DNA of 20,566 bases from a virus. Positions 1,484 to 20,566 of this stretch are shown piece by piece (within the stretch, counting starts at the first letter, position 1; each line of letters starts with the position of its first letter). The translations under genes and the position numbers were made by a program. The DNA lies in IMG/VR virus record IMGVR_UViG_3300030012_004210, positions 3,340 to 23,905 of that record; one strand, 5' to 3'. The notes below the pieces were generated by a model. It did no database searches. It had not been told where the DNA came from and saw nothing but the letters and a program-made list of their open reading frames with translations.

Positions 1484-4400
1484 AAGATATAACTCTTAGA
1501 TTTTTAATCATTGGAGGGAAAGCTTGGTTAGTAGAAGTACCAATCAGTTTAATTCTCAAGGAATTAAATGATGATAAACGATCTACACTAAACTTATATT
1601 CCTTATATTGAGATCTCATTGAGAGTGGAACTAAACTATCTACTTTTGATACTTCATTATCAGTGGTACCATCATTTAAATTAGTGTTAATGACAGAACC
1701 ATTAGGTTGTACATTGTTGTAACCTGGGAATGGAGTAAAGATAGTATCAAGAACATCACCTTTTGGATCTAAAGCGTAGAAAGCTCTAACATCAGCTTGA
1801 TTGTGTATGTAAGCATCTATGTAAAGTTCTATAGATGTTCCTGGATTTCCAAGTTGAATATTCTTGGTTACATAAGAGAAACTATTCTTATCATTTCTCA
1901 CACCTTTAACATCAAAGTCATTGATGTAATCAGTAGTTACTTCATTTACTCTGTTAGTCGTAAATATTATAGAAGAATTATTCAAATCAACTACTGGTGT
2001 GATTCTTGAGTCAATGGTTGATAAATTGAAGTTTGCTGTAAATGATTTATTTTGTGGGAACTCTGTCAAGAAGGTAGTTTCATTGATTTTGGATGCAACA
2101 ATTCTTGGAGAATCGAAAACAGTACTACTATTAATACTCATTGGTTCAGTTCCCTTATCAGTAAATGAAATTTCATTACCAGAAATACTAGTACCACTAA
2201 CTGTTCTAGAAGTAGCACTGATTGATGTTCCGTTTGGTGTGATTGTATTGATGTTTGGTCTAATTTTTTCAAATTGAATATTATACGTGGACCTACCATT
2301 AACACCACCACCTTCAAATTTTTGATTGAAGTGTAGTTCTGGGAAACTTGAAGAACTTGTTCTATTGGTTCCATTCTGAGACATATCAATCTTCACATGA
2401 TAAGAATCGAGAGTTATTGGATTATTAATAGTAACTCTATTTAATTCATGAGTTTTATTAATTCTTCTCAGAGATACTCCATTAAATTCATATTTTTCAA
2501 CTAAATCATTAATACTGAAAGAACCAACTAAACTATTATCAACTCCTCTAGTAATTCCAGTTAAAGTATTTCCAGAAGTTCCAGTGTAAGAAATAATCTC
2601 ATCACCAATTTTTATATAACCTGGATTTGTCGTAGCAACACTTACATTTTCAAATTGAGTCAAATTAGATACATCAGCAACTGATATTGGAGAAGTATCT
2701 GAAATACTATATGATGCGGTTAGAAGTGTTGGGTCAATGTCTCCAACAATGTCACTTAATGTTGCAAGATTCGTCTCCGAATGCATCCCGTGATTTCTAC
2801 AGAAAATCTTGAGATGGAGTCCATCAGTATCAACTCTGATTGGTGATACGGGAACAATTCCACTTCCAAAACTTGCTTCGTGATTTAATGTTGTTGTAAT
2901 ACCACTACTATTCACATAAGTCAATGTATTATTGGCGAGTGTTCCAAACTCACCTTGAACATTGGTAATAATAAGTTCGTTTTCACCAAAAATGTTTGAA
3001 ACGGATAGTCTAATTCCAGTTCCAAGAGTTATAGTTCCCAAAGAACTTGGTGTTACAACATCACCTACTCTATAACCAACTCCACCATTAACAATGGATG
3101 CAGAAGAAACACTTCCATTGTTAACAGTTATATTAGCAGTAGCATTAACACCATTACCCGTAACTGATGTAAGTGCAACATCATTAAATACAAAACTTCC
3201 AGAAGAAGGTGTATAACCAACACCAGCATTTGTGACTGTTAATGCTGATGTTGCGGAACCAGCAAATCCAACAAAATCACCGGTGGCTTGTGTGAGATTT
3301 TGTGTGACAGTGTTTCCTGGTACTAAGTTACTTAAATCGGAATTTACAACAGTTGTTCCAAGACCAACCCTGATTGCATATGGATCAGTAATTGCGGCAT
3401 CTTTTCCAATAAATTCAATATCTTTATTTAAATCTGGATTGAATAGTTGTACATTTCCATTCGAAACAAAATCACATCTAAAGAGTTCGAACTTCAAGTC
3501 TTCATACTGACTTGGTGTCCATGTAGAAGCATTTTGTGATTTAAATAGTGATCCGAGAAGTGGTTGTGTAGATACTAAAGTTTGAGAAGCTTCTGGTTGA
3601 TTAATTGTAGAAATATCAACCTCACCAAGTCTAGAAATCCAAACTGTATATCCAGGTGAATTAGCTAACAATACGATTGCATATTCTCTTCCAGATTCCA
3701 AATAAACTGGGGATTCAAATGTAAACTTTGTAGCGATACTACCATCAACTGATGGTGTAATTTCTTGAGGATTTTTTACTACTCTTGAATACGCTAGAAT
3801 TTTTTTGGAAGGAACTCCTAATTCCATTTCTCTAATATCAAAAGCTACCGGAATATTATCGGTTGGAACTGATTCGAAGAATACATCACAAGAAGAAACA
3901 AAAATTCCAGTTTCGTCATCAACAGTAAATGACTGTGCTAGAGGGTCAAAAAATCTTCCAGTAAGGCCTTCGGTTGGAGGTGTTACTACTTCCGGAGTTC
4001 CAGGAATGACTTCGAAAATCGGTACCTGTTCTCTAGTAACATTTCTGGTAGAAAGTGTTACCTCTTGAGTTGTGTCAAGATCTCCCTGAGAGTAGAAAAT
4101 TTCATCAGCAGCTGTTGTATATGAAGATGATCCTTCAATTTTACTATTAGTTGGGCTACTGGTGAGCCTCATTTTATTTCTACCTGTTGAGAAAGTCGGT
4201 AATGATGTATTTCTAGAATCTGGTACTCTATAACAACCAATTAAGGAACCAACTCTATCAGTTACAAGTCTGAGATTAGATACTGTTGCTATAGCACCAC
4301 TTGTCTCACCTTGTAATGTCATCCCACTCTGAAGATATCCTGAATACTCTGGAGATCCCTCGTCAGCTAAACTAAAAGTATCTACGTTAAGAATTGAAGA

Positions 4401-7400
4401 TGTTTCTGAATAACTTGATGGGATAGTATTGTTTCTATCATAAGGATTATTTACATACGTATCAGTTGGATTGTTGTAAGGTCCGCTCTTATGATTAGAT
4501 GAAGCTACTCTGAATGTCATTACTGGAAGACCAAATCCTGCTCCAGGAATTACTTGTCTTGCTGCAACTGTGTTACTACGAACAGTCTCTCCAACTTGGA
4601 ATGTGCCAGAAACCATTTGAATTTCAATCAATTTGTTTATACAGAATCTAGATACATCAACTTCATCCCAGAAAGGATAAACTCTTGTATAAGGTTTCAT
4701 TCTTTTTGCAGTGAACTCAATATTACGAGTTCTCATATTTGCGATAATTTCGCGTTTGACAATCCTATTTCCAAGAGATTCTGTTGTTGTCTCACCTTCA
4801 GTAATTATAGTTTCGACACCAGTTTGAACTACACGGTCGGGTGTTGCTGGTTGTATTACTACTTCATTTAAAGTAGTTCCAATCTCGACCATGAAATTAG
4901 GTGGAACACCTCCACCACCCCACCAGGGTCGACCATGAATAGCTTCAAACTCTTCCGGAGTTCCTTGTCTCCAAGTCCCATCTTCTAACACTTGCTCACG
5001 ACCACCGAACTGGAACAGCTGAGCTCGGGTCCAATTGATATCATCTAGAGCTGTAGCTCCAACTTCAAGTGCACCACCATCATCATCAATTACCGTTGGA
5101 ATTGCACCAACTCTTGGAGCAGCTTCAAGATCAACCTCTATTTCAACATTAATTGGTTCTATATCTACAGTATTAACTCCACCCTGAATGTTTCTTGGTT
5201 CTATAGTTATAGTATCAATCCAAACATCAACGGTGGGTTCAAAGGACAATATTCCTTGATAGAAAGTAACTAAAAATGGAGTAACAGATTCAGCTCTTGT
5301 GGAGAATGGTTGACTTAACCAAGATACTTCTGTATAGTCAAGAGAAACTACCTGATTAGTTCTTCTAATACCATCACCTAAAATTGTAGAAAATCTGGTA
5401 TCATCGTTTGAATTACCTTCTGTAGCAAGGCTCAAGTTAATCGCAGTTGTGTAATGTGAAGGTCTCAATATTTGTTGTTTTTTATCAATAGCATTTTTAA
5501 CACCAATTCTAGAGTCTTGAAGATCTCTAGAATTAAAATTATCAACAGCTATACCTGATTTGAAACGATTCAACCCATTTTCGTCAGGAGTGAACTGATT
5601 AATTGTTTTTTGTTCTAAAGTGTTAAGGGCAGTATAGTATTCGAGGTTATTAATTCTCCTTTCCAATTTTGAGATATCTCGCATTTGATATCTCTTATGG
5701 TTGATGAATGATACTGTAGCATTTTCAACTCTATAGAGATATGCTGGAAGATATACGTTAGCGATTTCCATCGATCCACTATCAATCTTGGGAAGAGTGG
5801 GAATATCTGATGGAATTCCTTTTTTGACCGTAAAATCACCTTTTTTAGTAATTAAAATTCTGTCATATCTTGGAAGATAATAGGAATAATCTACTGTGAT
5901 TGATTCATTTGAAGCCAAAATGTCTTTAGAACTATGTTGACCTCCATTAAATGATCTCCCAAAAAATTCAAATGGAGATCTAGAACCCTCAACTACATTA
6001 AAATTAGAAGTGCGAAGTCTAGCGTCAATAATATCTGAACATCTAATTCCAGATTTAGTTGCCCCAATTTCTGTCGAATAATCAAAATTATCGTATGAAT
6101 TTATAGTTGTAATATCACCAGTATCTGAAGAATCATATGAAGCTGATTCATAATATACAATAATTTTTTTAGTCGGTGATATTACATCCTTATTTCTAAT
6201 AATTCGAGAATAGTCATAGAATGTTTCTTCCTGACCACGATCTAAGGAGAATCTAGAAGTTATATTTTTACTTCCGATATTTAAATTAGATACTACTGCA
6301 GTAACTCCTGAAGAAGTAAATGTTACAACTTCACCATTTTCAAATGTGTTTTGGTTTTCGTATATAAAGTTGATTGAAGTATCACTCTTTCTAAAAATGT
6401 ACTTAGCTAAAGCTCCACTAATACTTCCAACAATCTGTTCAGAAATAATCAGATCATTGGTTGTAGATGTAGAACCACTCATCAAAGAAGTTGTCATACT
6501 TGATGATTCTGGATCACTGGTTGTTTTTGATTCAAATACTCCAAAAACTCTAACAACATCAGGAACATTTAAAGAAATTTGTGAGTCTTGAACCCTACTA
6601 CCAAAAGGATAGTTTCCATAAGAAAGACCATCATTCAATGTTGTTGCTCCTACACCAGAATTTGATTGAGAAGACTTGTTTATAATAATAGATGATGATG
6701 TATTATTTACTTTTACCTTTTCGGTTATTTTATCCTTTCTGAGAGTGGTGACTAATTGGGCACTACCACTTCCTGACAATCCATTAATGGTAAGGGTTGT
6801 ACTTCCGGAACCAAATGTCAATTTGGATGCCGTTAATATTTCTGTACTACCATCGTCAAGAATTAATGTATATCTTTTCTGGGTATATGGGAGGAAAACT
6901 TCATTTTCACCGGCGGTTATGGTATTCGTAGATCCATTCGTAATTGTTATACTATAAGGTCTTCTTATAGTTAATGTTGCATCATTTAACGATACATTGG
7001 AAATATTTTGTTTGGGGAATGAACTGTAGAGAGTTCTGTTTGAGGAAGTATTACCACTTGCGGATGATTGTTGGAATGTAGTTCCTAATACAGAAAGATC
7101 GTTAACTTCAATCGCAGTAGATGGTAATGCACCATCTACAAAACCAGAAACCGTAGTTATACCGGAAATTGTAATTTGTGTTTGTGTTACACTCTCTACT
7201 TTCGCAAAAGATTGGAAATCTAAAGAAGCTCTTTGATATCCTAAAAGTTCACCACTATCTACAACTCCAAGGAAGTTCGCATTTGGTGATGATACTGTAG
7301 AAATTCCATTACTAGCAGCTGTAATTGACGCGTTACCAATTACTAATCTTGAAGAGGGAATAAAATTAGCGCTAAATGTTTTTGCCGATCCAACAATACC

Positions 7401-9050
7401 ATGCATCGATTGGAAATCGGATATTTTATAATTAGTAACTTCTCTGGTTGATCTGGAATTATCCTCTACTCCATTAAACAGGAGTCTCTCACCCTCTACA
7501 AATTCTCCATCAACATCATATGCTGTAATTGCTGTTCCAACAACAGAATGTCTTAAATAACCGGTAGCTCCACTAGTTTTACCTTCAATTTGTGTTGGTA
7601 TTGTAAGAGAAACTGATTCATTTACAGTAATATCTGAATATTTACTAATGTCCCATAAAGAAATATTCCACTTATTTAATGCTGGATAAGTGGAATCATA
7701 TGAACCGGATTTTAAATTGAAGTCATAGAGTCTGGCAATACCAATTTCTTTTCCCGCAGGAACTGTAAAATTAGTTCCAACTCTATCACTTCTCATACTG
7801 ATAGTATAAGAAGTGTTAATTCCTGCCGATGGGCAACCATTAACACTATTAACAACAAAGGATGGCCCAAAACCAAAATTTATTCCCTGATCTTCTAAAG
7901 TTTTAGTTGTTCTTGGTTTTTCAAAATCAATTAAAGTTGGGGCTGATGTATCAACTTCAAATCCTCTTACGTAAGCCTTTCCTGGAGAGATTTTGTAAAT
8001 ACCGATATCGTCCGAAGGAACATTTCCTGTAGGTGTTAATTGATTTGCACTAAACAAACCCCTATTACCAAAACCATTATTTAAACTATCAACAACATTA
8101 GTTACAAAATCTTTTACATAGTAATTTCCAGATTCTTCAAAAGTTCTTCTTGCAAATTCTTCAGCAATAATATTATATTCAGAATTTCTTATTATACTTC
8201 TTATAGTGCCATTATCGATAGTTGATAATTGGACAAAATTTTGATCATTAAAATCATCTAGATTTTTTTTAATTAATTTTGCAGTTATTTTTAATCTATC
8301 TGCACCAGGTGCCGTGTAATTATTAAATCCCTTCGCATTATCATTTAACGTATCATCTATGTCTGAGGAAATTATTTCCTCAACAACATTAAATCCAATT
8401 CTATAACTTGGACTATTTGTATATTGATCTAAGATCAATGTTTGATCACTAATTTGAACAAAAGTTCCTCTTAAAAAATATACTCCAGAAGAAATACTGA
8501 AAGAAGATCCAGTTGCCGAAGCATTTTGAGATATAGCTTTAGCAAATCCCTCTCCAGCAGAAATAAAGGTTGTAGCGTAATTGATACTAATATCAGTTAA
8601 CAGAACTTCATCATTAAGAAATGTTGATGTCGATAAATCGACTGAACTACTGTTAATATAATCAACATATAATGTATAATTTCCTTTTTCCGATTCAAGG
8701 TCTGTAATGTAATTGACAACTTTTGCTGTTACTCCTGATGTTGCGCCAGTAATTGTTTTTCCGATTAACTGTTCAACATACAGTGAAACGGGAACTCCAA
8801 GGTAACTCTGATCAATCTGAATACAATTATAATTCCTCTGATAGGAAACTCCACCAGGAATAACCATAGAACCTTCTTTAAAAAGGTGTTCACCAACATT
8901 TTCTACCTGATTTTGGAGAATTGATTGTAATGTCGTTAGTTCTCTAGCTTGAATCGGATATCCCGGTTTAAACAGAACTTTATAGTAGTCTTTTTGCGAG
9001 TCAAAATCGTCAAAATAGGGGGCGACGTTGAGATTAGTTTCCTGTGGCAT
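1476..9050 (-). CDS. Giant DUF4815-containing virion structural protein (2,524 aa)
   Basis: The N-terminus (MPQETNLNVAPYFDDFDSQK, then YYKVLFKPGYPIQARELTTLQSILQ) is the hallmark of DUF4815 proteins, structural proteins of marine T4-like and other myoviruses, probably of the baseplate or fibres. A helical segment at about residues 1120-1150 (ISKLERRINNLEYYTALNTL) is characteristic of the end of that region. Further landmarks are FSTRAESVTPFLVTFYQG near 1250, MRTRNIEFTAKRMKPYTRVY near 1440-1460 and DPLAQSFTVDDETGIFVSSC near 1700. Beyond 1900 come beta-type modules shared with the neighbouring proteins: GVGY turns near 1940 and 1990, an FCRNHGMH turn and a GDEIISYTGTSGNTLTGITR hairpin near 2150. 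There is no signal peptide or membrane segment. It starts 6 bp after gp8 ends, without its own late promoter, so it is probably co-transcribed with gp8. It ends in two adjacent stop codons (TAATAA), overlapping the next gene. It occupies the T4 gp9-gp12 slot; the exact role is unknown. Confidence 0.9.
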   Translation of the reverse strand: MPQETNLNVAPYFDDFDSQKDYYKVLFKPGYPIQARELTTLQSILQNQVENVGEHLFKEGSMVIPGGVSYQRNYNCIQIDQSYLGVPVSLYVEQLIGKTITGATSGVTAKVVNYITDLESEKGNYTLYVDYINSSSVDLSTSTFLNDEVLLTDISINYATTFISAGEGFAKAISQNASATGSSFSISSGVYFLRGTFVQISDQTLILDQYTNSPSYRIGFNVVEEIISSDIDDTLNDNAKGFNNYTAPGADRLKITAKLIKKNLDDFNDQNFVQLSTIDNGTIRSIIRNSEYNIIAEEFARRTFEESGNYYVKDFVTNVVDSLNNGFGNRGLFSANQLTPTGNVPSDDIGIYKISPGKAYVRGFEVDTSAPTLIDFEKPRTTKTLEDQGINFGFGPSFVVNSVNGCPSAGINTSYTISMRSDRVGTNFTVPAGKEIGIARLYDFNLKSGSYDSTYPALNKWNISLWDISKYSDITVNESVSLTIPTQIEGKTSGATGYLRHSVVGTAITAYDVDGEFVEGERLLFNGVEDNSRSTREVTNYKISDFQSMHGIVGSAKTFSANFIPSSRLVIGNASITAASNGISTVSSPNANFLGVVDSGELLGYQRASLDFQSFAKVESVTQTQITISGITTVSGFVDGALPSTAIEVNDLSVLGTTFQQSSASGNTSSNRTLYSSFPKQNISNVSLNDATLTIRRPYSITITNGSTNTITAGENEVFLPYTQKRYTLILDDGSTEILTASKLTFGSGSTTLTINGLSGSGSAQLVTTLRKDKITEKVKVNNTSSSIIINKSSQSNSGVGATTLNDGLSYGNYPFGSRVQDSQISLNVPDVVRVFGVFESKTTSDPESSSMTTSLMSGSTSTTNDLIISEQIVGSISGALAKYIFRKSDTSINFIYENQNTFENGEVVTFTSSGVTAVVSNLNIGSKNITSRFSLDRGQEETFYDYSRIIRNKDVISPTKKIIVYYESASYDSSDTGDITTINSYDNFDYSTEIGATKSGIRCSDIIDARLRTSNFNVVEGSRSPFEFFGRSFNGGQHSSKDILASNESITVDYSYYLPRYDRILITKKGDFTVKKGIPSDIPTLPKIDSGSMEIANVYLPAYLYRVENATVSFINHKRYQMRDISKLERRINNLEYYTALNTLEQKTINQFTPDENGLNRFKSGIAVDNFNSRDLQDSRIGVKNAIDKKQQILRPSHYTTAINLSLATEGNSNDDTRFSTILGDGIRRTNQVVSLDYTEVSWLSQPFSTRAESVTPFLVTFYQGILSFEPTVDVWIDTITIEPRNIQGGVNTVDIEPINVEIEVDLEAAPRVGAIPTVIDDDGGALEVGATALDDINWTRAQLFQFGGREQVLEDGTWRQGTPEEFEAIHGRPWWGGGGVPPNFMVEIGTTLNEVVIQPATPDRVVQTGVETIITEGETTTESLGNRIVKREIIANMRTRNIEFTAKRMKPYTRVYPFWDEVDVSRFCINKLIEIQMVSGTFQVGETVRSNTVAARQVIPGAGFGLPVMTFRVASSNHKSGPYNNPTDTYVNNPYDRNNTIPSSYSETSSILNVDTFSLADEGSPEYSGYLQSGMTLQGETSGAIATVSNLRLVTDRVGSLIGCYRVPDSRNTSLPTFSTGRNKMRLTSSPTNSKIEGSSSYTTAADEIFYSQGDLDTTQEVTLSTRNVTREQVPIFEVIPGTPEVVTPPTEGLTGRFFDPLAQSFTVDDETGIFVSSCDVFFESVPTDNIPVAFDIREMELGVPSKKILAYSRVVKNPQEITPSVDGSIATKFTFESPVYLESGREYAIVLLANSPGYTVWISRLGEVDISTINQPEASQTLVSTQPLLGSLFKSQNASTWTPSQYEDLKFELFRCDFVSNGNVQLFNPDLNKDIEFIGKDAAITDPYAIRVGLGTTVVNSDLSNLVPGNTVTQNLTQATGDFVGFAGSATSALTVTNAGVGYTPSSGSFVFNDVALTSVTGNGVNATANITVNNGSVSSASIVNGGVGYRVGDVVTPSSLGTITLGTGIRLSVSNIFGENELIITNVQGEFGTLANNTLTYVNSSGITTTLNHEASFGSGIVPVSPIRVDTDGLHLKIFCRNHGMHSETNLATLSDIVGDIDPTLLTASYSISDTSPISVADVSNLTQFENVSVATTNPGYIKIGDEIISYTGTSGNTLTGITRGVDNSLVGSFSINDLVEKYEFNGVSLRRINKTHELNRVTINNPITLDSYHVKIDMSQNGTNRTSSSSFPELHFNQKFEGGGVNGRSTYNIQFEKIRPNINTITPNGTSISATSRTVSGTSISGNEISFTDKGTEPMSINSSTVFDSPRIVASKINETTFLTEFPQNKSFTANFNLSTIDSRITPVVDLNNSSIIFTTNRVNEVTTDYINDFDVKGVRNDKNSFSYVTKNIQLGNPGTSIELYIDAYIHNQADVRAFYALDPKGDVLDTIFTPFPGYNNVQPNGSVINTNLNDGTTDNEVSKVDSLVPLSMRSQYKEYKFSVDRLSSFNSLRIKLIGTSTNQAFPPMIKNLRVISYA

Positions 9051-9056
9051 AATTCT

Positions 9057-10613
9057 TTAGAACTGTAAAATTATTTTTACGTCTTCTTTTTGAGAAGATG
9101 ATCTTGTTACAGAAGGTCTGTTGTCAACATAAATGATATTACCAGAATGTTTTTTAGATTCTGGTTGTGCAACACCCCTTACGAAGTTTTGACCCAAGTA
9201 GTAGGTTCTATTATTTATTACGGTAGATATACCTGTAAATGTATTATCAATCGCAAGATTTCCACTACCACCAACAATCACCAAACTACCACCAGAAGAT
9301 GGGCTATCTGTGAATTTCAAAGATTCGAATCCATATGTTGGATTTGAATTTTTTTGTCCTCCAAAAGTAAATCCCGAATTTGTTCTATCTTGCCAATACT
9401 TTAAAACTCCAGTCACAGCATCATAAGAAACAACTCTACCAACAGCTGTGGAACCAAGTCCAACAGTTTGTGTAATTAAAGTATCGGGAGTGTATGAAAT
9501 TGAACTATAACCAGCACCTGTTAATCTAAGTGCATAGACAGCACTTGCTTTATCACTCGTAAGAATTGATGAAGAATTATGTGCTTCTGGATTTTCTATT
9601 AATCCAACCCTAGCGAACTGGTTTCCTGTAATAAAATCTGGATTGTCAGTATCATTTTCAAATCTAGAATAAGCTAAAACATTATAAGCACCCAATTCTC
9701 TGTAAATATCATGACCATGACCTCCAGGTGGAGGAATAATAACATCAAAAACCGGACTGGTGGTTCCAGTTGGTACATTTCCAGATTTTAAATCCACAGT
9801 ACCATACGTATATCCACTACCACCTTTTGAAATGGTAATAGAATCTACTTTAGAGTCATTATTAATAACAATTGTAGCAGTCGCTCCACTTCCATCACCT
9901 TTAATTGGAACTCCAGTATAAGTCAAATTAGGTGATCCTAATCCAACTCCACGATTTCTAATCGTAATTGTTTTGAGTTGACCACTATTTGAAGCATTAT
10001 TCCTCACAGCAGCATTATCAGTGCTCGTATCCCAATCTGAAGGGACTGGGATGTAATTTGTGGAATCAAATCTAATAGCTTGACTTGGTCTGATTGTATA
10101 AAGATATTTCCAAATATATCCATCACCACTACTACCAGCTTCCCTTGGTTCTAGATCTGTAAACGTTGGTTCATCTAGTGAAGGTCCGCCATTGAAATTA
10201 TTTTCAGGATTTGCATTATTATAAAGACATATGTAAACCTTATAATCACTATTCATCACATAAAAATTGGAATCATAAATGTCTAGTGATGATGATGGTA
10301 GGGCAGCATTATCCCTAGTAATATCATTTCTCCACATTCCATAAGTGATTCCAGATTGCCAGGTAATTTTCCTGACAACCTGACTAATATCACTGGGGTT
10401 GATTTTTTTCAAAGCCAACATGGTATCCCAATAATCATTATTCTGATCAAAACTATCTTTTGGTGATGGGGGATTGGTGTCCCAATCAGATTGATAACTT
10501 GAAGAATTTGGCAATCCAATAAAAGTATAATATGAATTGGTAGTAGATTGTACCCCACTTACAAAATTTTTCGCATTTAATATACGAAGTTGATCAGTGA
10601 TTATAGCTGCCAT
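9057..10613 (-). CDS. 8: gp8-like baseplate wedge protein with extra module
   Basis: A 518-residue homologue of T4 gp8 (334 residues), one of the baseplate wedge subunits. Three blocks line up with T4 gp8 as I remember it. Residues about 47-80 (NPPSPKDSF...YWDTMLALKKI) match PPYPTDSVLGVTDMWTHMMG; about 158-172 (GDGYIWKYLYTI) matches GDGYVWEYLFEI; and the C-terminus (KHSGNIIYVDNRPSVTRSSS, then KIILQF) matches RHSGEMIYMENRPPIIMAMD followed by INILFTF. A further match is GNQFARVGLIENPE near 328-341 against NKGFRQISIITNP. The extra length lies mainly at about residues 205-290 and 355-485 and is rich in glycine, serine and threonine, with GGSGY-type turns (for example ISKGGSGYTYG near 260) shared with the giant proteins. 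TATAAATA stands 20 nt before the ATG; there is no strong Shine-Dalgarno sequence. The DUF4815 gene follows 6 bp downstream. Confidence 0.85.
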   Translation of the reverse strand: MAAIITDQLRILNAKNFVSGVQSTTNSYYTFIGLPNSSSYQSDWDTNPPSPKDSFDQNNDYWDTMLALKKINPSDISQVVRKITWQSGITYGMWRNDITRDNAALPSSSLDIYDSNFYVMNSDYKVYICLYNNANPENNFNGGPSLDEPTFTDLEPREAGSSGDGYIWKYLYTIRPSQAIRFDSTNYIPVPSDWDTSTDNAAVRNNASNSGQLKTITIRNRGVGLGSPNLTYTGVPIKGDGSGATATIVINNDSKVDSITISKGGSGYTYGTVDLKSGNVPTGTTSPVFDVIIPPPGGHGHDIYRELGAYNVLAYSRFENDTDNPDFITGNQFARVGLIENPEAHNSSSILTSDKASAVYALRLTGAGYSSISYTPDTLITQTVGLGSTAVGRVVSYDAVTGVLKYWQDRTNSGFTFGGQKNSNPTYGFESLKFTDSPSSGGSLVIVGGSGNLAIDNTFTGISTVINNRTYYLGQNFVRGVAQPESKKHSGNIIYVDNRPSVTRSSSQKEDVKIILQF

Positions 10614-10658: not shown

Positions 10659-12206
10659 TCAAACACTCGGATAAATCACTATATTATTTCCCATACTACT
10701 ATGAGAAGTACATTGATAATATAGTGTATTTGGTGCGGAGAAAGGAACTTCAAATTTAACTGTTCCACTTGATGCTCCGTTATTAGTTACGCCAGTGCTG
10801 TATGCGGAACCACCATTACTCTCTCTTATTTGGAATGGATGTGAACCACTAGTGCCAATCCGAAACTCATAAGTCTGTCCTCTTGCAAGGTATATTATGG
10901 GATCGTCAGTATTACTTAATCCACCTGGACCTGTAAATGTATAGTGACCAGAACCATTGTTACCTATAGTCCAAGCAGCGGTCGGAGCGTCTAATGTCGT
11001 AGCAGTAAGAGTTCCTGTGACTGTTACACCACTTGCTGTGGTTTCAAGTCTTGAGGAATTCTGCCATTCAAGGTCTACACCACCTGCATTCAGTAATCGA
11101 ATTCTTCTATTAATAGCATCAGTTGCATTGTTGGCATAGAAACTCATACCACTTTTAGAATATAAATCTATTTGACCACTGGCTCTAAAAGCGATTGAAG
11201 ATGTTTGTGTACCAGAAACATTATATATAATATTTACATCACTTGCAGAATCAAGAACAAGATTACCACTACTAACTGTTACACCAGTAGAAGTTGTGTA
11301 TAATCTGTTTACAACACCAACACCTGTACCAGTTTTAAGATAAATTTGTCCACTAGCATGATCTGCGTGAAACGTCATGCCGTTAGCATTAGGACTTTTA
11401 ATTGTAAGAAGTCCAGATCCTAGTTGAGATATTACTGAGTTTTGTGAACTATCGGCGGCAAGACTAAGTACATTAGTGGAACCAGTATTCAATTTCAATG
11501 TACCATCAAATGTACCATCACCAGTAATATCAATATCACCAGTGATATCAATATCACCAGTTCCTGTAATATTTTTGCTGTTTAAATCTAAATTACCACC
11601 AAGTTGTGGAGTAGTGTCATCAACCACATTGGAGATTCCTCCTCCTCCACCACCAGATGCTGCAATAGTAATATCTCCAGTTGGTCCACCAGTTAATGTA
11701 ATATTAGATCCAGCAGTAATAGAAGTTACAACTCCATTGAGTGATGATCCATCAATTGATGGAAGAGTTCCTGTAAGATTCGCGGCGGGAATATTACCGG
11801 TTCCCGTTATATTCTTACTATTAAGGTCAAGGTTACCACCAAGTTGTGGTGTGGTATCTTCAACTACATTCTTGAGAAATGTACTTGCCAACTTACCATC
11901 AGCGATAGAACCTGCTAGTTGTGCATTAGTAATGGTTCCGGTTAAAGACGATGTTGGATAATTGGTTGCATCAGTTAAATCAAATGCTGGAGTTGCATCA
12001 GAAGAACCTAATGTGACAGATACACCACCAAATGAAACACTACTATTAGTTAACTTACTATTAGCAATGGTTGTTAATGCGGACCCGTTACCCAGAAAAG
12101 TGTAAACTTCGTCAAAATTTGAATTTATCTTTAGCGCACCTTGAAGTAACGTGTCTCCTGTCCCATCATTGGGATTTGATCCTGTACTAATTCCTAGTTT
12201 TGACAT
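10659..12206 (-). CDS. Fibre-like structural protein with C-terminal cupredoxin-like domain
   Basis: A complete 515-residue protein. The N-terminus (SKLGISTGSNPNDGTGDTLL, then ALKINSNFDEVY) resembles the DGTGD...KIN.NF anchoring segment of many phage fibre proteins. The body is Gly/Ser/Thr-rich with two copies of DTTPQLGGNLDLNSKNITG, a GGGGGG linker and the tandem GDIDITGDIDITGD, as expected of a trimeric beta fibre. Residues about 407-515 form a compact domain that looks like a cupredoxin: a YEFRI strand, SHPFQI with H456, then YYQCTSHSSMG with C499, H502 and M505, giving the His...Cys-x2-His-x2-Met arrangement of amicyanin. Copper binding is inference. Its place between the YHYH-type giant and gp8 suggests a baseplate-attached fibre or tip protein. 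An AAAGAGTAG Shine-Dalgarno-like sequence and a GATAAATA late box lie directly upstream of the ATG. The host receptor or role is unknown. Confidence 0.87.
   Translation of the reverse strand: MSKLGISTGSNPNDGTGDTLLQGALKINSNFDEVYTFLGNGSALTTIANSKLTNSSVSFGGVSVTLGSSDATPAFDLTDATNYPTSSLTGTITNAQLAGSIADGKLASTFLKNVVEDTTPQLGGNLDLNSKNITGTGNIPAANLTGTLPSIDGSSLNGVVTSITAGSNITLTGGPTGDITIAASGGGGGGISNVVDDTTPQLGGNLDLNSKNITGTGDIDITGDIDITGDGTFDGTLKLNTGSTNVLSLAADSSQNSVISQLGSGLLTIKSPNANGMTFHADHASGQIYLKTGTGVGVVNRLYTTSTGVTVSSGNLVLDSASDVNIIYNVSGTQTSSIAFRASGQIDLYSKSGMSFYANNATDAINRRIRLLNAGGVDLEWQNSSRLETTASGVTVTGTLTATTLDAPTAAWTIGNNGSGHYTFTGPGGLSNTDDPIIYLARGQTYEFRIGTSGSHPFQIRESNGGSAYSTGVTNNGASSGTVKFEVPFSAPNTLYYQCTSHSSMGNNIVIYPSV
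10662..10988 (-). other. Cupredoxin-like C-terminal domain of the fibre protein
   Basis: This is the coding segment for residues 407-515. The potential metal ligands are H456 (codon 10841-10839), C499 (10712-10710), H502 and M505. Spacing between the first His and the Cys is 43 residues, similar to classical small blue copper proteins, and the Cys-x2-His-x2-Met loop has amicyanin length. The segment has no Cys outside the ligand position, so the single Cys is not a disulphide partner within the domain. I recall similar C-terminal domains in marine phage structural proteins, usually without assigned function. Confidence 0.6.
11521..11556 (-). repeat. 18-bp tandem repeat encoding GDIDIT x2
   Basis: Two adjacent 18-bp units (11521-11538 and 11539-11556) differ at a single base and encode two GDIDIT units of the fibre shaft. 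A partial third unit (five bases) follows. In-frame length changes by slippage would lengthen or shorten the fibre by six residues. Confidence 0.85.
11561..11870 (-). repeat. Two diverged DTTPQLGGNLDLNSKNITG repeats
   Basis: Two copies, at 11561-11630 and 11801-11870, encode an identical 21-residue core (DTTPQLGGNLDLNSKNITG plus TG) preceded by VVDD or VVED. The 70-bp DNA units differ at 16 positions by my count, nearly all synonymous. The repeats frame the glycine-rich linker and probably form equivalent turns of a beta fibre. Confidence 0.85.
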
Positions 12207-12233: not shown

Positions 12234-15200
12234 TTAAGTGTAATTTTTAAATTTTAGAGGATTAGATCTTGTAACAACAGCTGATGTGGATATTCCAGCA
12301 TATCCATCACTACCATAGAAATTGAATGAATTCTTTTTCAGTGGTGTGGTTAGTTCAATCTTACCCCAACTAAAGTTTCCAAAGTTTCTATCGGAGGAAA
12401 TTCCACCACTCAAAACCCCAAAACTACTATTATCAAAGGTGAACGTGTTAGAATCAAAAGATATTGTATTAGTATCAAATGATGATGTTGAGTAACCAAC
12501 TATATTTGCAAATACTCTTCTTACGGCCGTATTACCAACACCAATAACTTCACCTTGTTCTGTATAAACGTTGGAAACTTGATATACATTGTCAAGGAAT
12601 GTTGTAGTTATTCCAATAACAGTTCCATCTGTCGATTCAGACACAACAGTTCCTGTTGTAGTAATAGCTACATTTGTATTGAATAGAGTAAAATAATCTC
12701 CGGTAGAAATTCCACTTACTGTGATTCCGGTACCAACATACTTACTATCTCTCATGAAAGAATCAGTAGGAATATAAAAATCAACTATAAGTTTATCTTG
12801 AGCACTTTGTGTAGTTACACCAAATCCTACCAAAGTTCCATAATCACCTTTATAGGAAGTGACTCTAACTTCATTTTCTTTAATAGTACTCTTCTCCTCA
12901 ATTATCACCGATGGTGGGTTAGTTGAAGTGTATCCACTTCCAGGATTTGAAACTGTAATACCGGAGATAGATCCGTTAATGATCGTAGCAACTGCAGAAG
13001 CTCTAAGTTCAGTTCCAAGTCCAACAGGATTGCCAATAATCACCGATGGTGCGGACGTATATCCAGAACCAACATTTGATATGTTAACTGAACTGATGGT
13101 ACCAGATGGAGAAACTGTAGCGGTAGCCAATCCTCCAACTGAAACATCTTGAGAAATAATATCTATCTTTTTATTATTTCCTTCCGCTTCATTTTGTGAA
13201 TTAAATAGAGGTCTTACAGTATCAACATAAATTTCTGTTGACCCTGCACTAACAGACTTAAGAACAAATGATGATGGATATACTAGGGGTTCTTGTTCCT
13301 CTCTATCTTTGCCAATAACTTTACCATCTATAAATCTATCATTAGTTTGTTTGCACCATATCACTGGTCTAGATAAAGTTTTATCATCAGTGACTCCTGG
13401 ACCATAATATGGATTTGTGTTTGCGGTATCAACGGTTAATACATCAGTTACAACCCTTACATCTTGATCCAAATCACTATTTTGATTTAAGATAGGATCA
13501 TTGTCGATATTTAAAGTATCACCTTTTTTGACAGTTGGTAATACATCCCTGAAAATAACATCAATATCATCACCAGAACCTTTATAGAATAGTAATTTGG
13601 AAGTATCTCCACTATTAGGAGCTTCATTAAATTCAATAATACTACTTCCTTTCAATTTAAATGATCTCTCTGGTTCCTGAAGTATGTCATTGATGAAGAT
13701 TAACAATGTTTGAGTGAGATCAATTTTAGATCCTTCTTTCTTAGAAATAGCGAATATATCATTATCCTTTTTCATCTTGAAGGATTTAGTTTTTCCATCA
13801 AATTCGTCATCTATAGTATCAAGAACATCAAATTCACCTATACTCCAACCGTTAAATGAATCATTATAAATTCTATCAATTTCTAATTGGAATTCTTTAA
13901 ATGAAGTTGTACCATCAGTTGGAATTCCCGTAGAACCTCCAACAGGTACGGTTAATATTTCACCATTACCATATCCAAAACCTGGATCATGAATACTAAA
14001 GTTGATTACACTAGAACCCTGACCAACAGTGATATCCACTGTTGCACTTAATCCAGATCCTACAGGAGAGGATGAGCTGTATTGTAGTGGAATGTCCTCA
14101 TATTGTAGGGGATTGTCAAAGACGACCAATGGTGGATTTGTATTTTTATATCCAACTCCTGGATTTGTAATAGCAACTCCAACGATATGACCTCCACTTA
14201 CAGATGCTGTTCCAATAAACTCAATGTTTGGTATTCCGTTACTATAAGTTTGAACTCCAACATTAACTACTGTCTGAACTCCTACTCTATATCCAGAACC
14301 ACTATTACCAATGCTGATAGAAGAAATTGTTCCTGCTACAGATACAACTGCAGTTCCTCCAGCAGAAACTAGAGGTTGATATCCAAATCCTTCAGTTGAA
14401 CCTACTGAAATTATTAATCCACCTAGTGGAAGGCTTGACCTATTTGGATCATATCCTTCAGGAGAACTTTGTGAACCAGTAAATGTTATCGTAGTAATAC
14501 CGGCACTTTCTTCAAGATCATAATCACCATCCTGATTGATGTCTGAGATTCTCTTAGGTTGTTGGAATATTCCATTGATCAAAACAATAGAGTTCCAAGT
14601 AGATATTCCAGATACATTGGAGTTATTAGATTTTAATACAAACGAACTTTGAACACCTGTAAATTGGTCCGAAATATTATCAAAAACATAATTATCTTCA
14701 TAAGTATCACCAGAACCATTTTCAATTCCAGATCGTATGAATGCTCTACCTTGGAAAGTTGAACTAGTTGTTATACCGGTCCAATCAAAATTAGATGGAC
14801 CTGAAGTTGTCGTACTCAGAGGAATTTTTCCATGAGGTGCTTCTGAGAAGTTTAATGTATTATTGATAATATTATAATTACCAACTATTTTAGTTACCAG
14901 TGCACCGGTACTATGACTTGAGGATAATGTTCCCATCCAACCTCTTCTAACATCAACATTCGTATTTCCACCAATACCAACATCCGTAACATAAACAATT
15001 TCGTCATCTATCTTCAAAAGGTCACTAGAAGATATAGAAGTGACCCCACTTATTCCAAATCTAGTGTCAAAAACAATATTTTGACTGAGTAGAGCTGTCA
15101 CACCAGAAGAAACAATAGGTGATTGAATCATATTATCAATTGCAATCAATACTTTAGAGTTTTGATTGGTAGAAGTTAATTTATGAACAGTTCCCACTCC

Positions 15201-18200
15201 AACTGATGTAAAGTCAAAGGTGATTGGATTTGTTGCCAATGCATCTGAAGCAGAACCTGCCAATCTTATTCTAGATTCAGAATCTTTTACAACATATACA
15301 GTTGATGGAATTTTATCAGTAATTCCAATTCCAGAAATATTTGTAGAAGCTATTGAAATTGGAACTGAATTTGGATTTAATCCATTGATAACTGCTTCAT
15401 ATGAAATCTTTTCACCAGTAACAAAATAATTATTATTAAGAACGATCTGATTGTTAGTCAAATCAACAAAAGTGGTACTGGAACCATCAATTTCTCGTTC
15501 AAAAATTTCATTACCATCATGTGTGAGGTCAAAGGTTGTTTTCAGGTCAAGAAGTGATCCAGTGTAAGTACCATTATCACAAATAATTGTTTCACAACCT
15601 AAATCAATATTTTTTGGATGTATGTTATCGTCAAATATTCTGATGGGAATTTGAAGTGATCTTACCTGAACACCAATATTTGCATTTGGTGTATATGTAA
15701 GATTAATATTATTTCCGACAGATGTAATTCCTATAGAACCAAGTGATCCGGATGTTTGAACATTACCATATTCAACATGTGTTTGAATGTTCGAGGAATT
15801 TAATATAACAGACTCAAAGATTTCATATTCATTGTTAGTGGTATCTTTAACTGTGACAATGTTATATGATGCATTAGCAAACCTTTGATCATAAGATGAA
15901 ATCACAACGGCTGACGGAGAACCAGAAGAAGAGATAGCTTTGTAATTCGATTCTAAATCTACTGTACTTAAATTAACAGTTGAAATTCCAGTGGAACTGT
16001 CAGATGTTGCAATAATTGAAACGCTTGATGTTAGTGCAACACCGACATTCGGAGTAAAATCAATCTTAAGATTACCGCTGTTAATGTATGGGAAGAAAGT
16101 ACCAAATCCACTCGAACCATCTGTTACTATGTCACCATAACTTGAGAAGTATGCTGAAGTTCCATCATGAATTACACTCAATTCCACTCCATGATGTTCT
16201 TTGGATGTATTTTCAAGATCGACAAATACCTTCGCAGATCTGTAAGTGGAAGATATTGAAACAACCGTTGTAGTGGTAGCTACTGAAACATTTGTCTGTT
16301 GAGATTTAATATTTACAACATCTCCAATATCTGTAGTCCCTATTCCACTAACACCATTTACACTACTAAAAGAAACTGTAGATACATCATAATTATTATA
16401 TTCTGACTTTATGGGGAAGAAAGTTAAGTTCCATTCTCCATCTGGATTATTTGTTGGTACTAAGTAACCAAAAGATCCTAATTCTGTCACAGTATCAAGA
16501 ATCGCATATTCGTGCATCTGTGCTTGATTTCCGACTTGCATTACGGAAACCATAGATGCATGTCTTTCGTCGGTATAAATTGAATCTTTAACAAATACAA
16601 ATAATTTATTATAATTATTGATTAATGGGAACTTAGATACCGATGTAAATTGTGTTGGTCTAATGTTACTCTGAAATGTAGAACTAATATCATCAATTTT
16701 TAAAACCCTGTTTCCAACAGATTCGAAGAAATCTGACAGTAACCTATTATTGAAGTTGATTTCTGTGGAAACTAAAGTTCCGTCTACGTTTACGGTAGTT
16801 TCAGTAACTTCATCAAAATCATAATAGCAGTTTAAGTCAGCTTCTCCAACAATATTGACTGACAATTCAACATTACTATTTTCTGGTAAAGTCACTGATA
16901 AAGTATCATTATCAACAACACTTTCAACTTGAAGATCTGCAAATTTTTCAAATCCAGCAGTATGGTCGAGAGAACTTACCGGATCATCCCATGTCTGATA
17001 AGGTATTTTAGATTTGAGTGAATATGAGAAGTTTTGATAATATTCATTGTTAGGAATTCTCTGGAAATTGTTATTCAACATACCAGAAATCAACTGCCAA
17101 CCACTAATCACAGTAGCTCCAGAACCAACAATAATTTGAGATTCAAAATTAATTTTTTTCGTAACAGAAGCTTTTGCTGTAGATGTTAAACCTTTAATAA
17201 TGTCACCAGCTAAGAATTCATCAGAAGATTCGACATACAGATATTCTGCTGTGGAGTTCCACCTTCTAGCTATACCAACCTTTGAACCAGAAACTACAGT
17301 TTCACCAACAAGTATTTCATTTGTTTTGAGTATTGGATTAAATACTGGAAAATCATTTTCTAATATTATTCTTCCAGCAGAATTAGAAAAGTCTACATTG
17401 CCCGGTACTTCATTACTAGAAAGATCTTCCTGTAAACTATACTCTACATAAGCTCCAGAACCACCTAAAGCTGTGTTGACACCGGTAAGACCAAATAATT
17501 TATAACCATAATTGGAAGAATCGTATCCCTTTCCAGTAGATCCAATACCTACAGAAAGACCTTCAATGAAAACTTTTGAACCAATACTAAATGGGAAGGT
17601 GTCTCCAGCTCCAAAAGTTTGATCGAGAAATACTCGAACAGTCTTTGAGGAATTTGTATAAGTTACCGTAGAAATTCCTATACCATTGCTGTTTTGTATA
17701 GGAATAATTCTGGGAGATGTGTTATAAATTCCATCCGTATTTTTCAGGATTGTTACTTCACTATCTCCTAAATTGTAGTTTAAATCAACATCAGAAACAA
17801 CTTTGTTTGTGAATCCATCAAGAACTATTAATTTTGGTGCAACTAAGTAATCTTTACCAGAAAAAGTAACTCCAATACTTTCAAATTTGGAGAAAGGATC
17901 TATATTTAAAATTTCTGGTAAGTTTGAATTAACTCTTAATGTATTATCAGTTGGATACGCAAAACCAATCTCATTGAATTTATAATTAGTAATTTGACCA
18001 ATAGTTTCACTATTGGATTCTAAAATAGCACCAACCCCGTCTTTACTTTGTACTGTCGATATTCCTGGTAAAGTTTCATATGAACTTCCACCATTACTGA
18101 CATCAATTCTTGATATTGGTCCAGAAGATGTTAATGAAGTTGTTTCATATGATATGGTTGAATTTGTGGAATTGTAATTTACAACCTTAGGAGATTCTAT

Positions 18201-20566
18201 TACATCATATGTGAAAGTAGATGTTCCAACTCCAGTTACTGTATAATCTCCACTGTATATTGAGTTGATAACATTTATTTGGTTGGGACTATTGACACTT
18301 GTATCAAAAACATTATTTTTGAAAGATGGTAGGATATCAAGATTTATATTGTTAAATTTGTAATACAATAAAGATGGAACAAAATCACTAACACTTAAAG
18401 TTAAACTAGCATCAGAATCAATACCAGGTTTTCCGATCTTCAATACCTCAAATTTTGATGTATTGGGTGATGAAAGAAACTCTGTTAAGAAGTTTTTGTC
18501 TTCATATAAACTTAATTCGAATGCAGAATATACATTTGAATTGTAAACAAAAGCTAATGAGTTATCTGATAGGTCAAATTTTACATTATTATTTCTACTA
18601 ATATTAATTCCTGGATTTATATTTGATAAAGTTCCACCATTTGTACTAGTAATATTTACAAAATTAGGTGATTCTTTTAATAATTCACTTTTTTCTCTAA
18701 CCAATCTAATATCTGTTTGGTTATATGTAATAACATAATACATTTCCTCATTTATCAATCCTCCAGCTGGAGATGATGAAGTATGAATTACCCTATCACC
18801 AGTTTTAAAATCATTTTTAGAGAATTTAATAGTATTATTCGTGATGTCAACGTCACCGGATACAAAAGTTTTTGGATTAAATACTATCCTTCTGTTATGA
18901 TTATTATATTTTACTTGAATGGTTATCAAATCTCTAGGTTTCAAATCAATTGAAACTTTATCTCTAGCTCTTAATAAGTGTGGTGATGATGTAGTTACTG
19001 TAATTATGTTCCTATCAACAGATCCACTTAGAACATTACTCAAGTTTGTTTTAAAGCTATGAGTAGTTCCAGCTCCAACTCCAGTAAAATAGAAGAGACC
19101 TTTACTATCAGTACCTATACCAACATAAGATCCAGTGGTTCCTATTCCGATTCTATTAGAACTTATTCCAATATGATTATCGGTGATATTAGCAACAAAC
19201 AGTGTTGTGTAATCTGTCAGATTTCTATACGAAGAAGAATTATTCCCGTCCCAGATTTGAATAGAGGTTCCTCCGTTTGTGGAGTAAGTAATCTGATCAT
19301 TGAGGTTTAATCCGTGATTTGGATAGTAAATCCTCTGTGGATTCGTAAAGATTTGGGTAATTCCAACACCTGGATTGGAGAATGTAATAGTATTACCGAT
19401 ACCAGTTCCAAGTGTAGTTCCAATTCCAACAGACTCTGAGGGATCAAAATAAAGTTCTCTATTAACTTTAAATACTCTATTAGATTTTACTGAATCTGCA
19501 AGAAAATTGAATTTAGAACTTTCCTCAAAAATCTTTGTAGATCTCGTATGTGCACTGCCAACTGTTGAATTTTGAGATCTCAATACACGTAATCTGGAAT
19601 TAATTTTATCAATATTTAATACTTTGACTTTCTCAGTTCCAATGGAGAGAATATCATTTTCTCTTATAGTTGGATACTCTAAAGGTCCCAAAACATTTAG
19701 ATAAGCAACAGATCCAGTTGCTCCTGCTGTACCAATTCCTGATGTTAAAGTCCAACTAACAGTACTTACTCCTACACTATAAGAACCATCAAACCCTTCA
19801 TAATAACTAGAAAGTCCAACAATTTGAACAGTATCTCTAGAATTTAAATTGTGGGGGGATGTGGTAAAACCAATGAATAAATTTGATAAAGGTAAAAATT
19901 CAACATCTTCTAAAGATAAAGTGCTCGCGGTTACATCACTAACTGTTTTGCCCTTAATTCTAGAAACTTTGGCCGAAGCATCAAAACCCTGGGTATTCGT
20001 ATTGTCAAATACAATATTGTCATTGAGTTTATATCCGTCACCACCGGATACAATTTCAACATTTTCAACTGAACCTCTTAAAGATGAAGTTACTTCTAAA
20101 GATTGTTTCTTAACCCTATCAGAGTCAAAAATATAATCATATCGACTATTTTGTTTTCTGAGGTGATATGGTACAGTATATCTCAACCAACTATCACTTT
20201 GTAAACTAAAATCTTTTTGATTTGAAATTCCTTTGAAATTAAAGTCAATCGGTGTTGACTTATAAGTATCACCGATTAGATACGGAAAAACTGGTCTTTT
20301 ATACTTACTAAAGGGTCCGTCACTATCAACTTCAGATTCTATAGTTGCAAAGTATGCATAAACACCATCAGGGTAATCCGGAGTTACACAATATCTTCCA
20401 TTACTCGCATCCAAATCTCCATTGCCGACATATTCAAAGTCTTCAACGAAAAATCCTGATTCAAAATTAGGTCTATCCAACTTATCAGATTTGTTAATAT
20501 ATCCAGATTTCATTTCACGAATGACTCCAGTACCATCTTTATTTGAATATCCATATGGACCATAAA
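12234..20566 (-). CDS. Giant YHYH-domain virion structural protein, N-terminus beyond window
   Basis: At least 2,776 residues; the frame stays open to the right edge, so the ATG at 20513 is internal. The first codons read YGPYGYSNKDGTGVIREMKS, followed by GDLDASNGRYCVTPDYPDGV and YAYFATIE, which match the second half of the YHYH domain (PF14240). The rest is a string of beta-type modules. It includes three copies of a 'TGD...YYV...I.L' module (about 19045-19360, 18605-18860 and 15165-15485), three 'V.IN..QQP' modules (14975-15160, 14480-14660 and 13570-13800) and many GxGY turns. It also has a DINQDGDYDLEE loop resembling an EF-hand. There is no signal peptide or membrane segment in the visible part. 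It lies directly upstream of the fibre and gp8 genes, where T4 has gp7, but I see no gp7 similarity. It is probably a baseplate-associated or host-contact protein. The stop is TAA at 12236-12234. Confidence 0.88.
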   Translation of the reverse strand, partial: YGPYGYSNKDGTGVIREMKSGYINKSDKLDRPNFESGFFVEDFEYVGNGDLDASNGRYCVTPDYPDGVYAYFATIESEVDSDGPFSKYKRPVFPYLIGDTYKSTPIDFNFKGISNQKDFSLQSDSWLRYTVPYHLRKQNSRYDYIFDSDRVKKQSLEVTSSLRGSVENVEIVSGGDGYKLNDNIVFDNTNTQGFDASAKVSRIKGKTVSDVTASTLSLEDVEFLPLSNLFIGFTTSPHNLNSRDTVQIVGLSSYYEGFDGSYSVGVSTVSWTLTSGIGTAGATGSVAYLNVLGPLEYPTIRENDILSIGTEKVKVLNIDKINSRLRVLRSQNSTVGSAHTRSTKIFEESSKFNFLADSVKSNRVFKVNRELYFDPSESVGIGTTLGTGIGNTITFSNPGVGITQIFTNPQRIYYPNHGLNLNDQITYSTNGGTSIQIWDGNNSSSYRNLTDYTTLFVANITDNHIGISSNRIGIGTTGSYVGIGTDSKGLFYFTGVGAGTTHSFKTNLSNVLSGSVDRNIITVTTSSPHLLRARDKVSIDLKPRDLITIQVKYNNHNRRIVFNPKTFVSGDVDITNNTIKFSKNDFKTGDRVIHTSSSPAGGLINEEMYYVITYNQTDIRLVREKSELLKESPNFVNITSTNGGTLSNINPGINISRNNNVKFDLSDNSLAFVYNSNVYSAFELSLYEDKNFLTEFLSSPNTSKFEVLKIGKPGIDSDASLTLSVSDFVPSLLYYKFNNINLDILPSFKNNVFDTSVNSPNQINVINSIYSGDYTVTGVGTSTFTYDVIESPKVVNYNSTNSTISYETTSLTSSGPISRIDVSNGGSSYETLPGISTVQSKDGVGAILESNSETIGQITNYKFNEIGFAYPTDNTLRVNSNLPEILNIDPFSKFESIGVTFSGKDYLVAPKLIVLDGFTNKVVSDVDLNYNLGDSEVTILKNTDGIYNTSPRIIPIQNSNGIGISTVTYTNSSKTVRVFLDQTFGAGDTFPFSIGSKVFIEGLSVGIGSTGKGYDSSNYGYKLFGLTGVNTALGGSGAYVEYSLQEDLSSNEVPGNVDFSNSAGRIILENDFPVFNPILKTNEILVGETVVSGSKVGIARRWNSTAEYLYVESSDEFLAGDIIKGLTSTAKASVTKKINFESQIIVGSGATVISGWQLISGMLNNNFQRIPNNEYYQNFSYSLKSKIPYQTWDDPVSSLDHTAGFEKFADLQVESVVDNDTLSVTLPENSNVELSVNIVGEADLNCYYDFDEVTETTVNVDGTLVSTEINFNNRLLSDFFESVGNRVLKIDDISSTFQSNIRPTQFTSVSKFPLINNYNKLFVFVKDSIYTDERHASMVSVMQVGNQAQMHEYAILDTVTELGSFGYLVPTNNPDGEWNLTFFPIKSEYNNYDVSTVSFSSVNGVSGIGTTDIGDVVNIKSQQTNVSVATTTTVVSISSTYRSAKVFVDLENTSKEHHGVELSVIHDGTSAYFSSYGDIVTDGSSGFGTFFPYINSGNLKIDFTPNVGVALTSSVSIIATSDSSTGISTVNLSTVDLESNYKAISSSGSPSAVVISSYDQRFANASYNIVTVKDTTNNEYEIFESVILNSSNIQTHVEYGNVQTSGSLGSIGITSVGNNINLTYTPNANIGVQVRSLQIPIRIFDDNIHPKNIDLGCETIICDNGTYTGSLLDLKTTFDLTHDGNEIFEREIDGSSTTFVDLTNNQIVLNNNYFVTGEKISYEAVINGLNPNSVPISIASTNISGIGITDKIPSTVYVVKDSESRIRLAGSASDALATNPITFDFTSVGVGTVHKLTSTNQNSKVLIAIDNMIQSPIVSSGVTALLSQNIVFDTRFGISGVTSISSSDLLKIDDEIVYVTDVGIGGNTNVDVRRGWMGTLSSSHSTGALVTKIVGNYNIINNTLNFSEAPHGKIPLSTTTSGPSNFDWTGITTSSTFQGRAFIRSGIENGSGDTYEDNYVFDNISDQFTGVQSSFVLKSNNSNVSGISTWNSIVLINGIFQQPKRISDINQDGDYDLEESAGITTITFTGSQSSPEGYDPNRSSLPLGGLIISVGSTEGFGYQPLVSAGGTAVVSVAGTISSISIGNSGSGYRVGVQTVVNVGVQTYSNGIPNIEFIGTASVSGGHIVGVAITNPGVGYKNTNPPLVVFDNPLQYEDIPLQYSSSSPVGSGLSATVDITVGQGSSVINFSIHDPGFGYGNGEILTVPVGGSTGIPTDGTTSFKEFQLEIDRIYNDSFNGWSIGEFDVLDTIDDEFDGKTKSFKMKKDNDIFAISKKEGSKIDLTQTLLIFINDILQEPERSFKLKGSSIIEFNEAPNSGDTSKLLFYKGSGDDIDVIFRDVLPTVKKGDTLNIDNDPILNQNSDLDQDVRVVTDVLTVDTANTNPYYGPGVTDDKTLSRPVIWCKQTNDRFIDGKVIGKDREEQEPLVYPSSFVLKSVSAGSTEIYVDTVRPLFNSQNEAEGNNKKIDIISQDVSVGGLATATVSPSGTISSVNISNVGSGYTSAPSVIIGNPVGLGTELRASAVATIINGSISGITVSNPGSGYTSTNPPSVIIEEKSTIKENEVRVTSYKGDYGTLVGFGVTTQSAQDKLIVDFYIPTDSFMRDSKYVGTGITVSGISTGDYFTLFNTNVAITTTGTVVSESTDGTVIGITTTFLDNVYQVSNVYTEQGEVIGVGNTAVRRVFANIVGYSTSSFDTNTISFDSNTFTFDNSSFGVLSGGISSDRNFGNFSWGKIELTTPLKKNSFNFYGSDGYAGISTSAVVTRSNPLKFKNYT
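12885..14330 (-). repeat. Cluster of GxGY beta-module repeats in the YHYH-type giant
   Basis: Five glycine-rich turns of one type occur here, in order of translation: SISIGNSGSGYRVG (about 14285-14330), VAITNPGVGYKNTNPPLVVF (about 14115-14195), INFSIHDPGFGYGNGEI (about 13945-14010), VNISNVGSGYTSAPSVIIGN (about 13015-13090) and TVSNPGSGYTSTNPPSVIIE (about 12885-12965). Two lie close together, separated by about 40 residues. The same turn is found in gp8 and in the DUF4815 giant. Confidence 0.75.

Follow-up and report, generated by a model that had tools for sequence, protein, structure and literature searches.

A predicted cupredoxin domain with a conserved type 1-like ligand set in a phage baseplate connector and other virion proteins of marine phages

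A 515-residue protein from the baseplate region of a T4-like phage ends in a domain that is predicted to adopt a cupredoxin fold and that carries four near-invariant residues, H456, C499, H502 and M505. The original prediction had described these residues, from the sequence alone, as a complete type 1 copper ligand set in the C-terminus of a phage fibre, with a Cys-His-Met loop of amicyanin-like x2/x2 spacing lying before a final NNIVIYPSV strand. The positions, the loop and the strand held when checked against the ORF translation and coordinates, and the spacing held as well. Hundreds of ocean phages have the four residues intact, suggesting copper or another metal on their particles, for which there is no metal measurement.

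The connector protein and its baseplate neighbourhood

The window, i.e. the whole stretch of DNA that was analysed (20,566 nucleotides), comes from an IMG/VR virus contig of 23.9 kb (IMGVR_UViG_3300030012_004210, positions 3,340 to 23,905) and covers the part of a T4-like phage genome that encodes the baseplate; the genes there are all on the minus strand. The gene of interest (10659..12206, minus strand; ORF, PF07880, PHROG_677) encodes a T4 gp9/gp10-like baseplate wedge/tail fibre connector with a C-terminal cupredoxin domain. It is flanked upstream by a gene for a gp7-like giant baseplate wedge protein (12234..20513, minus strand; PHROG_2885, 2213 bits) and downstream by one for a gp8-like baseplate wedge subunit (9057..10613, minus strand; PHROG_438, E=5e-161; PF09215), and this position between the two wedge genes meets the gene-order criterion for the connector family. 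The Synechococcus phages RB11-B and S-B05 encode proteins that share 72% identity with the gp8-like protein, and Prochlorococcus phage P-TIM68 encodes one that shares 67%; because of this resemblance to cyanophage proteins the virus is likely a marine cyanophage. The minus-strand set further includes a head-tail adaptor gene and a gene for a 2524-residue DUF4815 virion protein (1476..9050, minus strand; PF16075, E=2e-57). At residue 2084 the DUF4815 protein has an isolated FCRNHGMHS motif (C-x2-H). The motif was considered as a second cupredoxin site and was not counted, since its spacing differs and the cupredoxin profile does not match it.

The N-terminus of the 515-residue protein is a T4_gp9_10_N baseplate anchor (residues 6-60; 12027..12191, minus strand), recognized by PF07880 with E=1.5e-6 and 28.9 bits against a cut-off of 25, and PHROG_677 ('baseplate wedge tail fiber protein connector') spans residues 1-514 with E=1.9e-51. 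Given the above-cut-off PF07880 match and PHROG_677, the carrier type is evidence-backed, and the earlier label of phage fibre is corrected: the protein is better named a T4 gp9/gp10-like connector than a plain receptor-binding fibre. Two exact copies of DTTPQLGGNLDLNSKNITGTG, at residues 117-137 and 197-217, lie in a portion of the fibrous shaft (11556..11858, minus strand), while the cupredoxin domain comprises residues 410-515 (10662..10979, minus strand) and is supported by AlphaFold2 with an alignment, Foldseek against the PDB and profile matches. The whole protein has one Cys (C499), five His and four Met. It would be a short fibre with a wedge-plugging gp9/gp10-type N-terminus, a shaft of variable length and a cupredoxin C-terminus. 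By analogy with T4 gp9/gp10 and fibre shafts the fibre is probably trimeric, and the trimer remains an inference.

Predicted fold and conservation of the four-residue site

AlphaFold2 supplied with an alignment of 77 sequences (the window domain and its IMG/VR relatives, the latter <80% identical to each other) gave a model of nine strands with a pLDDT of 93.2 and a pTM of 0.86. A single-sequence model of the domain was poor (pLDDT 50) and was discarded. The best 50 Foldseek matches in the PDB were all blue-copper proteins, multicopper oxidases or cytochrome oxidase CuA domains, including copper nitrite reductases, rusticyanin, plastocyanin, AcoP, amicyanin, auracyanin and a Nitrosopumilus cupredoxin; E-values started at 1.8e-5 and the query TM-scores were modest (0.40-0.58). 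The structure prediction and fold search proposed with the original prediction thus returned cupredoxins throughout, and a non-cupredoxin fold, which would have refuted it, did not appear. The existence of the domain and its fold prediction are evidence-backed, and residues 410-515 meet the criterion of a cupredoxin fold in a predicted model, not a solved structure. Separately, fold matches in BFVD (E about 1e-6) were observed to the 'Beta-sandwich' proteins A0A481YWX9, A0A481Z7Q7 and A0A481Z6J5 from the metagenomic giant viruses Marseillevirus LCMAC201 and Pithovirus LCPAC.

At the sequence level, profiles built from the phage domain family reached plastocyanin (E=6e-4) as well as Cu nitrite reductase (4e-5) and amicyanin (7e-4), and the profile alignments placed H, C, H and M on the ligands known from amicyanin and plastocyanin. 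Comparison with amicyanin/plastocyanin by hhalign gave a probability of 95.7%, versus 0.3% for a reversed control, and masking the ligands lowered it to 5% with an unchanged register. Because masking removes most of the profile signal, the sequence homology leans heavily on the ligands themselves, and ligand-independent sequence homology to cupredoxins was rejected on these grounds. The fold match offers support that is more independent, and homology rests on the fold together with the ligand register.

Profile searches of the PDB yielded no phage chain among the matches. For the Pfam family PF00127 (Copper-bind) the result is borderline: it did not match the window domain, it matched 33 of 77 relatives weakly (best E=8e-5), and one relative, the connector on a Rickettsiales-MAG contig, passed the gathering cut-off, with 21.2 bits summed over its frame. 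Membership in the amicyanin or halocyanin families was rejected because the scores were under the family cut-offs, the window domain reaching 14 bits versus the 110 bits demanded by the amicyanin equivalog TIGR02657. The plant-named PF25489 (At5g54830-like domain) gave weak matches in 39 of 77 relatives (best E=8e-6), suggesting a distant eukaryotic cupredoxin-like relative.

The first ligand, H456 (10839..10841, minus strand), is part of an HPF motif, aligns with the first ligand His of amicyanin and is kept in 34/34 domains. C499, the sole Cys of the protein (10710..10712, minus strand), H502 (10701..10703, minus strand) and the axial ligand M505 (10692..10694, minus strand) are assigned by alignment with known ligands and by conservation, and form a C-x2-H-x2-M loop preceding the last strand. 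The order His, Cys, His, Met, aligned with known ligands, meets the criterion for a type 1 set. Convergence of the four residues at one end of the barrel, on which the original prediction also depended, is implied only by the ligand alignment with amicyanin and plastocyanin, without model distances. A chance motif is ruled out by conservation in relatives and by shuffling, as H-x(30-60)-C-x2-H-x2-M occurred in none of 20,000 shuffles of the carrier protein.

The first alignment scan demanded the C..H..M loop and was therefore unfit as a test of ligand conservation. The second and third scans used only the patterns VPxxAPxxLY and [DHN]YTF[TS]G[PIE]G, respectively, and neither required the four ligands. 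All four residues were kept in 36/37 domains from the second scan, in every one of the 34 full-length non-redundant domains (<85% identical) from the third, and in 112 of about 114 when everything collected was considered. Since the scans without a ligand requirement gave an unchanged result, the conservation is not an artefact of a motif-demanding search, and we regard it as evidence-backed; the homologue alignment could have refuted the original prediction by showing a freely varying Cys or His, and did not. The synonymous codons are mixed, with CAT/CAC at 79/34 for H456, TGT/TGC at 87/25 for C499 and CAT/CAC at 70/42 for H502, and the use of both His and both Cys codons therefore indicates purifying selection rather than recent copying. 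The Asn that usually follows the first ligand His is absent, and Pro (HPF) is found there in 96% of the relatives. Asn at this position is common in cupredoxins, not universal, and laccases have Pro after the type 1 His. The HP in place of HN sets the phage domain apart as its own cupredoxin branch. A conserved metal site is thus well supported, and the metal-binding, cupredoxin-derived module of the original prediction holds at the level of the site; no metal was measured and the identity of the metal is inferred. Copper, redox activity and receptor recognition are likewise inferences without experimental data.

Altered copies are informative in this respect. In four loci (L164, L141, L139 and L150) the connector has a complete site and an adjoining gene holds a divergent copy that lacks Cys, His and Met, while YYF and other fold residues are kept (YYFSNSSANRG in L164, YYFDRTVNSLDKG in L141). 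Other divergent copies are changed at the axial Met only, to Q in L074 and to K in L036; the axial ligand also drifts in some natural cupredoxins. Ligands that are kept whole or lost together are as predicted for a metal site. We also observed that a second divergent cupredoxin-like domain occurs in baseplate-type genes near the connector in all six of these loci, and that the near-connector copies form a natural series in which the ligands are kept, the Met alone is changed, or the ligands are lost as a set.

Distribution among marine phages and carrier types

Searches by tblastn with three different domains found matches in 342-360 of 50,697 phage records, nearly all of them marine: phages of Synechococcus, Prochlorococcus and Pelagibacter, together with marine viruses known from single cells or fosmids. 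The domain was not found in Aeromonas, Rhizobium, Sinorhizobium and Pseudomonas phages that have the gp8-like neighbour, and the plasmids searched gave no domain match. Among genomes of 84,980 species only four relatives were found, three on phage-like contigs in marine MAGs and the fourth within a Bacteroidetes collagen-like protein. A recent pickup from a host gene was rejected, given the lack of plasmid matches and the mere four relatives in all these genomes, although the genome scan relied on short patterns and is only a weak negative. As an observation on its own, a collagen-like protein of roughly 2.3k residues from a Bacteroidetes MAG (L177, 3322-10210) has an intact domain (HPF...CTAHTSM), and an S74-type C-terminus is probable.

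The domain is C-terminal in 83 of 122 distinct carriers, internal in 30 and N-terminal in nine, and some carriers have two or three copies. The carriers include gp9/10-like connectors, fibre-type proteins of T7-like podophages (P-GSP1, P-SCSP2), a long-fibre subunit (S-SCSM1), a subtilisin-like protease (S-H9-1) and an S-TIM5 protein encoded near the portal gene, and this spread is evidence-backed. Genes for subtilisin-like (S8) proteases were noted in several marine phages (S-H9-1, L012 1312-3318; L175 6578-8987; ACG-2014e; ACG-2014h; S-BM3); the C-terminus of the S-H9-1 protease is the cupredoxin domain, and fold or sequence matches point the same way in the others. Judged by eye, a contig that had been binned as Gammaproteobacteria also has a heme-oxygenase-like gene (L175, 9011-9551) in the midst of its phage structural genes.

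No account of cupredoxins in phage virions was found in the open papers searched; subscription papers and InterPro annotations were outside the search, so that the term 'undescribed' is provisional. The original expectation that such a module would be unusual held in part: it seems undescribed in those papers, yet it is common in marine phages.

Proposed role and relation to known systems

In 55 connectors the mean pairwise identity is 0.59 for the anchor, 0.35 for the shaft and 0.59 for the cupredoxin domain, and the shaft ranges from 63 to 844 aa. Since conservation of the terminal domain equals that of the anchor while the shaft varies, a strain-specific receptor-binding tip is disfavoured, and the recognition module put forward in the original prediction is not shown and somewhat disfavoured. 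On balance, we lean towards a mobile virion cupredoxin module that retains a type 1-like site and serves in docking or as an end-cap. The site formed by H456, C499, H502 and M505 would most likely bind copper in the released virion, both occupancy and copper being inferred. The metal would mainly lock the loops at one end of the barrel, creating a conserved docking face resistant to proteases and oxidation. This face may be used as an end-cap or as an adhesion or attachment module rather than as a strain-specific receptor reader, a docking role that is inferred without direct evidence. Redox switching would be possible as a secondary property, and the same module would be reused in many virion proteins across marine phages. 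Virions are assembled in the cyanobacterial cytosol, where free copper is believed to be nearly absent, and for this reason a Zn or apo form is possible. A bolder reading, which we regard only as possible, is that ocean phages, and cyanophages in particular, carry a working type 1 site in their fibres, baseplates and virion proteases and, as part of the same claim, that its copper acts in attachment or in triggering infection, tying infection to ocean copper chemistry.

Three other explanations were considered, all of which appear unlikely. The domain may be a metal lure ('Trojan horse'), in which a copper-loaded domain passes for a copper-ligand complex or for one of the host's copper carriers and attaches to a metal-handling protein of the host surface, as proposed for iron in fibres of T4-like and marine phages. 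The iron precedent of the HxH fibre motifs (PMC11705849), the near-complete confinement of the domain to marine phages and the sharing of one conserved terminal domain by phages of different hosts speak for a lure. However, there is no known partner in the host, the domain often lies inside the chain or at its N-terminus rather than at a tip, and it is also found on proteases and on the S-TIM5 protein. A redox sensor or switch is similarly doubtful. Here, a Cu(II)/Cu(I) change or loss of metal at the cell surface would alter the domain and help the baseplate or fibre to deploy, in keeping with the retention of the full ligand set of a redox-active site and with the drift of some divergent extra copies (L074, L036) at the weak axial ligand only. 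Against this, the module is found in many positions and also in podophages, which have no contractile baseplate, and no redox partner is known.

The remaining alternative, again improbable, is that the fold has been reused as an ordinary structural or adhesive beta domain, with the four residues serving in packing or binding Zn or another structural metal, and copper irrelevant. Adjoining baseplate genes with copies lacking Cys, His and Met show that the fold can work without the site, and accessory virion domains such as Ig-like domains are common. This explanation is weakened by the near-invariance of exactly the four ligand positions across diverse carriers, by the loss of Cys, His and Met as a set in several decayed copies, and by the lone surface Cys, which would be odd to conserve in oxic seawater.

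If metal does occupy the sites, protein-bound copper would be present on every particle of many marine phages, and above all of cyanophages. This would provide an adsorption cofactor that is easy to test, possibly a new class of seawater copper ligands in addition to the iron sites already proposed, and a function for the many proteins of a family that at present bears no label but 'baseplate wedge tail fiber connector' or 'hypothetical protein'. It also becomes testable why a virus should keep a metal site of the redox type where a fibre ends, and cyanophage virion proteomes have been published (PMC9602691; S-SCSM1).

Similar to type 1 copper proteins such as amicyanin, plastocyanin, rusticyanin and the domains of Cu nitrite reductase, the phage domain has a predicted beta-sandwich and a His plus a Cys-His-Met loop in identical order and place, with the C-x2-H-x2-M spacing of amicyanin. 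Unlike the known cupredoxins, it is fused to a baseplate or fibre protein and has HP instead of HN at the first ligand; its copper is only inferred, and it scores under the amicyanin and halocyanin family cut-offs. The carrier resembles the PHROG_677 connectors of T4-like cyanophages (syn9 gp102 and others) in its T4_gp9_10_N N-terminus, in the gene order gp7-like/connector/gp8-like and in a C-terminal domain that falls within the family profile. PHROG_677 is annotated as a connector only, and its cupredoxin nature is absent from searchable annotations and papers. Phage T4 gp9/gp10 share the baseplate-joining N-terminal domain, whereas the C-terminal part of the window protein is a shaft and a cupredoxin. 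The iron-binding HxH motifs in the fibres of T4 (gp37) and alterophage R22Y, on which the 'Trojan horse' hypothesis is built (PMC11705849), are likewise a conserved metal-ligand set in a marine phage fibre. The HxH sites lie between the chains of a trimer, while the cupredoxin site is within each monomer, and the fold, the ligands and the expected metal differ. Ig-like accessory domains of phages are also mobile beta-sandwiches scattered over virion surface proteins, and what distinguishes the cupredoxin module from these is its near-invariant set of metal ligands.
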